Below are positions 20,688 through 21,833 of a stretch of DNA of 64,000 nucleotides, piece by piece. The DNA comes from Terriglobia bacterium. Lineage in GTDB: Bacteria; Acidobacteriota; Terriglobia; Bryobacterales; Bryobacteraceae. How positions within the stretch are numbered: the first letter of the stretch is position 1; each line of letters opens with the position of its first letter. The translations under genes and the position numbers were made by a program. The notes below the pieces were generated by a model. That model was given only the letters and a program-made list of their open reading frames with translations. It did no database searches and was not told the origin of the DNA. The stretch covers positions 1 through 64,000 of the forward strand of contig JAJPIT010000050.1 of NCBI GenBank assembly GCA_021324615.1, written 5' to 3'.

Positions 20688-21833
20688 TCAGGCCGGAGCG
20701 AGGAAGGCGCCGGTAATCTGGCTCACCGAGCGGGCGCCGCACTGGCGCATGGTCAAGGTCAGCTCTGCTTGAAAGATTTCCAGGACGCGCTCGACTCCCG
20801 CCTGGCCGAAGGCCCCGAGCCCCCACAAATATGGCCGGCCGATGCCGACCGCGGCCGCGCCCAGCGCCAGCGCCTTGAACACGTCCGTGCCCCGGCGGAA
20901 ACCGCCATCGATCAGCACCGGGATCCGGCCGTGCACGGCCTCCACGACCTCGGGCAAAATTTCGATGGTCCCGCGGCCGGTCTCCTCGGCGCGGCCGCCG
21001 TGATTGGAGACGACGATGGCGTCAACGCCGTGATCGCAGGCGAGCGCGGCGTCCTCGCGCGTTTCCAGCCCTTTTAATACCAGCTTCATCTTCGTCGATT
21101 TCCTGAGTTGATCGACGAATTCCCAGTTCATTGAAGGCGAATTGATCCCGCCCGCGTCCAGCCCGGAAAGCATCGGCCGGTTCAACCCATCGGCCGGGCT
21201 CGGCTGGTGGCAGGAGGTGCATTGCCGGGTGTCGGCCGCGCTGAGGCGTCTCTGCGTCTCGGTGTTGCGGCCGCCATTCTGATCGACGGTGAGCACCAGC
21301 ACCGTGCAGCCTGCGGCTTCGACCCGCCGCAGCATTTGTTGGACGGCGTCCCACTTGCGCGGCGCATACATCTGAAACCACGGCGGGCGGCCCAGCGCGC
21401 CGGCGACGGCCTCATAGGAGTAGGAGGAAACGGTGGAGAGCATCTGCGCCGCGTTCTTCGCCTTGGCCGCCCGCGCCGTGGCCAGCTCGCCTTCGGGGTG
21501 GAACGCGCGCTGGCTTCCGCAAGCGCTGATATAGACGGGCGACGCCCACCGGGTTCCGAACAGATCGATGCTGGTATCGACGCGGCTCACGTCGATCAGC
21601 CGCCGCGGCCGCAGCGCGAACTTCCGGAACGCTTCCCGGTTGGCGCGCAGCGTCAGATCGTCATCGACGCCGGTGGCCATGTAGGCCCAATGCGCGGGCG
21701 GCAAGGCGCGGCGCGCCGCCGCCTCGAAATCCATCACGCTGAGCGCGCTTTTCGGATCCTGCGGACCCTCCTGCTGAGCGAAGATCCATGGGCTGGCGGC
21801 GGCAAAACTCAGGAACTCACGGCGGGAATGCAT
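20688..21833 (-). CDS. Tat-exported FMN-dependent alpha-hydroxy-acid oxidase with a CxxCH motif
   Basis: The family oxidises L-2-hydroxy acids (lactate, glycolate) with FMN. Seen here: a twin-arginine signal (SRREFLSFAAA) at the N terminus, the TIM-barrel motifs FQMYAP near residue 155 and LVLKGLETREDA near 258, the catalytic VVSNHGGR near 280, and the phosphate-binding DGGFRRGTDVFKALALGA near 313. Unusual is CTSCH at residues 205-209 (21207-21221), a c-type heme attachment motif inside the variable loop that follows the TVD strand. Export through Tat is compatible with heme attachment in the periplasm. TAGGAT (21841-21846) lies 7 nt before the ATG. Confidence 0.88.
   Translation of the reverse strand: MHSRREFLSFAAASPWIFAQQEGPQDPKSALSVMDFEAAARRALPPAHWAYMATGVDDDLTLRANREAFRKFALRPRRLIDVSRVDTSIDLFGTRWASPVYISACGSQRAFHPEGELATARAAKAKNAAQMLSTVSSYSYEAVAGALGRPPWFQMYAPRKWDAVQQMLRRVEAAGCTVLVLTVDQNGGRNTETQRRLSAADTRQCTSCHQPSPADGLNRPMLSGLDAGGINSPSMNWEFVDQLRKSTKMKLVLKGLETREDAALACDHGVDAIVVSNHGGRAEETGRGTIEILPEVVEAVHGRIPVLIDGGFRRGTDVFKALALGAAAVGIGRPYLWGLGAFGQAGVERVLEIFQAELTLTMRQCGARSVSQITGAFLAPA

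Follow-up and report, generated by a model that had tools for sequence, protein, structure and literature searches.

A predicted Tat-exported FMN-dependent hydroxy-acid dehydrogenase with a candidate heme c site in its active-site lid

The window, a stretch of 64,000 nucleotides from a member of the Bryobacteraceae (Acidobacteriota; contig JAJPIT010000050.1), carries on its minus strand a gene of the FMN-dependent hydroxy-acid dehydrogenase family (FMN_dh) with a CxxCH motif in the loop that covers the active site. It is flanked by carB, a glycosyltransferase gene and a gene without assigned function. The open reading frame encodes 381 residues (MHSRREFLSFAAASPWIFAQQ...), and its translation has the N-terminus MHSRREFLSF.... 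The features are listed below, with the equivalent residues of glycolate oxidase (GOX) where these are used.

20688..21833, minus strand: gene for a 381-aa, predicted Tat-exported FMN-dependent hydroxy-acid dehydrogenase with CxxCH (open reading frame and PF01070)
21810..21824, minus strand: twin-arginine signal core RREFL, residues 4-8 (sequence)
20700..21716, minus strand: FMN_dh (beta/alpha)8 domain (PF01070)
21690..21692, minus strand: His48, candidate distal heme ligand, three residues N-terminal of Tyr51, the equivalent of GOX Tyr24 (alignment)
21516..21518, minus strand: Gly106, equivalent to GOX Ala79, adjoining the FMN (alignment)
21126..21281, minus strand: loop 4, residues 185-236, bearing the proposed heme-binding segment (alignment with GOX and LOX)
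21261-21269, window coordinates: residues 189-191, region of the shifted active-site Arg (clade alignment)
21207..21221, minus strand: CTSCH, residues 205-209, proposed covalent heme c site with His209 as candidate proximal ligand (translation)
21171..21176, minus strand: Pro220-Met221, alternative candidate distal ligand (clade alignment)
21000..21002, minus strand: His278, catalytic base, equivalent to GOX His254 (alignment with GOX)

The FMN_dh model matches the protein over its full length (residues 39-377, 387 bits against a cut-off of 24.9, E 1e-115), and the 3.94 Mb genome yielded no other full-length FMN_dh gene. An AlphaFold2 model built from an 80-row alignment has a mean pLDDT of 91.7 and a pTM of 0.90. 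In a Foldseek search of the PDB its top fold matches are the glycolate oxidases 5zbm and 1gox, with flavocytochrome b2 lower in the list. The PDB holds no chain from the CxxCH clade described below, the top matches there being GOX and LOX, and no NCBIfam model claims the protein; lactate dehydrogenase models match below cut-off only. Gene neighborhoods give no operon clue to substrate or partner: across 80 loci no neighbor is conserved, the commonest occurring in at most 9, and no cytochrome partner gene is conserved nearby.

An initial annotation of this DNA had described CTSCH at residues 205-209 of a twin-arginine-exported enzyme, in loop 4 after the TVD strand. All of this is borne out, by the minus-strand translation of 21207-21221, by the consensus motif SRREFL at the N-terminus and by alignment with GOX and LOX. 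The TVD strand is formed by residues 182-184, and CTSCH lies about 21 residues C-terminal of it. Loop 4 is the lid of the active site in this family (PMC4908395, PMC10153336). In the AlphaFold2 model residues 205-208 form a short helix, and the loop is the least certain region, with pLDDT of about 60-77.

Whether homologues keep the motif was one of the checks proposed with that annotation, which took its absence from close homologues as refuting; close homologues keep it without exception. CxxCH is present in all of the best 30 homologues from the same GTDB family. Scanning GTDB contigs with peptide patterns that do not touch CxxCH added 80 further loci, and it is found in 80 of 80; since the patterns exclude the motif, its conservation there is not a selection effect. 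After distant homologues were added, the non-redundant set comprised 124 sequences with CxxCH and 46 without. At the aligned position the motif occurs in 124/124 members of the clade and in 0/46 of the other FMN_dh homologues, and a chance occurrence was rejected on this conservation. Cys205, Cys208 and His209 are invariant, CxxC is never found without the following His (0/124), and the pair of residues between the cysteines takes 53 combinations. A fixed CxxCH, in which the second Cys is followed at once by His and the xx pair is free to vary, is the signature of heme c, and 53 pairs between fixed Cys, Cys and His match the pattern of variation at heme c sites.

In its sequence the loop segment shows the look of a heme c segment. 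A profile of the 43-residue segment alone retrieves c-type cytochromes and MauG-type proteins from the PDB as its first 40 matches (best E 2.4e-5, a match driven largely by the CxxCH letters and thus no proof of descent). The first zinc protein, DnaJ (1exk), stands at rank 41. Weak Pfam matches fall at the segment as well, CCP_MauG at 0.017 and Cytochrome_CBB3 in 7 clade members. No cytochrome model reaches its cut-off in the protein; the proposed heme site consists of just a loop, about 40 residues long, and the fold is that of glycolate oxidase. A fused cytochrome domain was rejected, Pfam having found none.

The clade is found in Acidobacteriota, Gammaproteobacteria, Verrucomicrobiota and others. 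Record titles of the 80 scanned loci name Acidobacteria, Gammaproteobacteria, Burkholderiales, Opitutae, Gemmatimonadaceae, Latescibacterota, Marinimicrobia, Cyclobacteriaceae and Acidimicrobiia MAGs. One locus is titled as a Bordetella parapertussis MAG; its protein resembles Acidobacteriota clade members (loop 'TVDNTTGR...RPKD'), and the record is probably mislabeled. A tree of 96 representatives was computed with the loop 4 columns and position 48 left out. A single branch separates all CxxCH sequences from the rest (one change, SH-aLRT 92, no losses), and on this tree the motif arose once. The nearest sisters have neither CxxCH nor His48, one having Ala at position 48 (L156) and the other Ile (L164). 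Bryobacteraceae also have a second Tat-exported FMN_dh subfamily, about 41% identical, without CxxCH and mostly with Asn at position 48 (nine loci), which provides a natural heme-free comparison.

His48 is the stronger candidate for a second axial ligand. The position is His in 124/124 CxxCH members as against 3/46 homologues without the motif, and GOX has Val21 there. In the AlphaFold2 model His48 is on a helix formed by residues 46-53. The linkage of CxxCH and His48 counts as one evolutionary event, because both arose once, by a single change on the tree. A heme ligated by His209 of the lid and by His48 of the helix would lie at the entrance to the active site. The alternative, Met221, is Met in 110/124 clade members, Ile in 10, Thr in 3 and Asn in 1, with several of the Ile sequences from Gammaproteobacteria. 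Met221 as the only distal ligand is weakened by the 14/124 members that lack it, whereas His48 never varies. Three homologues (L158, L159 and L160) have His at position 48 yet lack CxxCH; L160 has an RR motif near its N-terminus.

The active site is otherwise that of the family. Tyr24, Tyr129, Asp157, Lys230, His254 and Arg257 of GOX correspond to Tyr51, Tyr156, Asp184, Lys254, His278 and Arg281, all of them kept. The protein should be an active hydroxy-acid enzyme, given the PF01070 match, the glycolate oxidase fold and the retained catalytic residues, and its likely substrates should be hydroxy acids such as lactate or glycolate. In lactate oxidase (PMC4908395), loop 4 acts as a closing lid on the active site and Tyr40 contributes to binding of the substrate's carboxylate group; Tyr40 is taken to be the equivalent of Tyr51 and GOX Tyr24.

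Position 106 adjoins the FMN. It is Gly in 106/124 of the clade and Ala in GOX, LOX and 23/46 of the homologues without CxxCH. Gly106 by itself is no proof of a dehydrogenase, since lactate monooxygenase has Gly as well. In AvLOX, replacement of Ala95 by Gly alters the oxidative half-reaction (PMC7312611). The word 'oxidase' in the initial annotation is probably wrong; 'dehydrogenase' fits the enzyme better.

One family residue is displaced. The 'invariant' Arg (Arg164 of sGOX, Arg289 of b2; PMC10153336) is Thr191 here, with Arg189 two residues before. In the clade Arg is found at 189 in 93/124 and at 191 in 29/124, almost always at exactly one of the two. Judged from the alignment, the shift is a substitution within the FMN_dh family, of which the domain match and the other residues keep the protein a member. 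The two-residue shift may reflect space made for a heme. In six other loci the loop starts like 'YYER' or 'FYER', and the active-site Arg seems to be missing from its normal position, where Tyr is aligned; this group may have a different activity.

All members of the clade are predicted to be exported by the Tat system: the twin-arginine motif is present in 124/124, in 115 directly and in the other 9 in the full upstream DNA. A signal-less, cytosolic subgroup, which would argue against heme c, was rejected when the longer upstream DNA showed Tat signals. Tat exports folded proteins. TatC is present in the organism's own genome. So are cytochrome c maturation genes, whose lack would, by the initial annotation, have refuted its reading: contig C104 carries a Ccm system I cluster with CcmF (PF16327, PF01578), CcmB (PF03379), a CcmC-like gene, an ABC ATPase in the place of CcmA and a short CcmH-like protein recognized by eye. 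ResB is absent from this genome, and system II maturation was rejected on that absence. The assembly protein Cytochrom_C_asm (PF01578) occurs in 30/30 further host genomes and in 9/14 control genomes, a co-occurrence that is weak evidence because the hosts mostly encode Ccm anyway, most such bacteria respiring with cytochromes.

Passages of one report state that Ccm can attach heme to a CxxCH placed in a non-cytochrome protein, that Ccm-I may modify virtually any CxxCH exposed to it, and that it needs delivery of the chain by the Sec pathway (PMC6962350). Tat export and heme c are thus in tension, which is either the most interesting feature of the system or the strongest reason to assume a metal in place of heme. 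The flexible lid could be a part of the folded enzyme that is still reachable for heme attachment. In a subgroup from other Acidobacteriota families (L190-L196), CxxCH and His48 are accompanied by an extra CxxCG knuckle that directly follows the Tat signal and may be a further metal site or a link to the lid.

The reading we favor, with a probability of about 0.7, is a Tat-exported FMN hydroxy-acid dehydrogenase that carries heme c on the CxxCH of loop 4 and passes electrons from FMN through its own heme to a cytochrome c or the respiratory chain, not to O2. In the mechanism we infer, which extends to the covalent heme, the identity of its ligands, the electron path and the substrate, the apoprotein would fold with FMN in the cytosol and exit through Tat. 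In the periplasm Ccm would couple heme to Cys205 and Cys208 of the loop 4 lid, with His209 as the proximal and His48 (less likely Met221) as the distal ligand of the iron. Substrate would reduce FMN by the usual chemistry of the family, with His278 as base and Tyr51 and Arg281 on the carboxylate. FMN would then give up its electrons singly to the lid heme, which would hand them to a soluble periplasmic cytochrome c or to the respiratory chain rather than to O2. Gly106 in place of the Ala of oxidases, together with the retained catalytic set, supports such a relay.

The same four invariant residues, Cys205, Cys208, His209 and His48, also make a Cys2His2 set that might bind zinc or iron, clamping the lid onto the barrel and tuning loop 4 with no carriage of electrons. 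A metal site would suit a protein folded before Tat export, and the additional CxxCG of the subgroup above is a knuckle typical of metal ribbons. Against it stand the strict CxxCH with its free xx pair, the segment profile that finds cytochromes ahead of any zinc protein, and the cytochrome c assembly genes in all tested hosts; a non-heme metal is unlikely on this evidence. In a further reading heme c is attached but its iron is open or weakly ligated, and the heme would serve alongside an oxidase as a gas sensor or a peroxidase, the latter breaking down, for instance, the H2O2 made at FMN. The segment is weakly similar to CCP/MauG and MbnH, Met221 is not invariant, and a covalent-heme family that came from a similar insertion has NO-sensing members (PMC12889525). 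The invariant His48 suggests that the sixth position is filled, and Gly106 and the lid position favor electron transfer from FMN, so that we regard this role as quite improbable.

It is very improbable that Cys205 and Cys208 form a structural or redox-active periplasmic disulfide with no cofactor at all. The protein is exported and CxxC pairs readily form disulfides, but such a bond leaves the invariant His209 and His48 unexplained, and the 124 sequences hold no CxxC variant lacking the His.

Among known systems, flavocytochrome b2 is the textbook enzyme of FMN-to-heme transfer, and it needs a whole extra mobile heme domain. This yeast L-lactate:cytochrome c oxidoreductase (PDB 1fcb, 1kbi) shares with the protein the FMN_dh barrel, the catalytic residues and a fold match, and its route from FMN to heme to cytochrome c is the one proposed here. 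In b2 a non-covalent heme b is held in a separate N-terminal cytochrome b5 domain, whereas the protein here comes from a bacterium, begins with a Tat signal and has its CxxCH within loop 4. No PF00173 match to a b5-type heme domain is found in the protein, which is classed not as a b2 but only as working like one. The glycolate/hydroxyacid oxidases (1gox, 5zbm) are the closest solved fold, at 38-39% identity and with the same active-site set. Glycolate oxidase reduces O2, and it has no Cys or His at the corresponding place in loop 4, Val21 for His48 and Ala79 for Gly106.

(S)-mandelate dehydrogenase and the LldD-type L-lactate dehydrogenases are dehydrogenase members of the same family without CxxCH. 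The LldD-type enzymes are quinone-linked, as is mandelate dehydrogenase (PMC8491902). Flavocytochrome c sulfide dehydrogenase pairs an FAD subunit with a separate cytochrome c subunit; here there is an FMN barrel in a single chain and no conserved cytochrome neighbor. A recent preprint describes a Cache domain that took up a short CxxCH fragment of cytochrome origin (sCache_heme, DUF3365/Tll0287; PMC12889525). Common to both cases is the apparent insertion of a short CxxCH fragment into a scaffold unrelated to it, followed by strict conservation, the scaffold being a sensor domain there and a flavoenzyme here. Engineered lactate oxidase-cytochrome c electrode complexes (PMC9915066) likewise wire an FMN hydroxy-acid enzyme to heme c. 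They are man-made and have a whole cytochrome outside the enzyme; here the candidate heme site is a natural one, placed in the lid itself.

In the PDB and in the open-access papers searched, no account of a CxxCH-bearing FMN_dh family was found. A study of misannotation in EC 1.1.3.15 (PMC8491902) covers b5-fused and long-loop members, and CxxCH does not come up in its text. FMN hydroxy-acid dehydrogenases that are wired to a heme are known; the type and place of the heme would be new. The protein appears to belong to an unrecognized group of exported enzymes with their own heme. The fuller proposal is a widespread, undescribed class of bacterial flavocytochromes c whose lid gave way to a cytochrome-like segment some 40 residues long, giving a single-chain relay from FMN to a bis-His heme c (His209/His48) attached after folded Tat export with the flavin; we would put this at even odds.

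If the proposal is true, wiring like that of b2 would be achieved by one short lid loop, and the heme and the substrate gate would be the same element. The system would make it testable whether Ccm can act on a folded protein exported by Tat. For direct wiring to electrodes, today achieved with artificial constructs (PMC9915066), it would supply a compact enzyme from nature. For the family, hundreds of genes now called 'alpha-hydroxy-acid oxidase', in soil Acidobacteriota and marine Gammaproteobacteria, would be renamed, and their products would change from producers of H2O2 to respiratory dehydrogenases.
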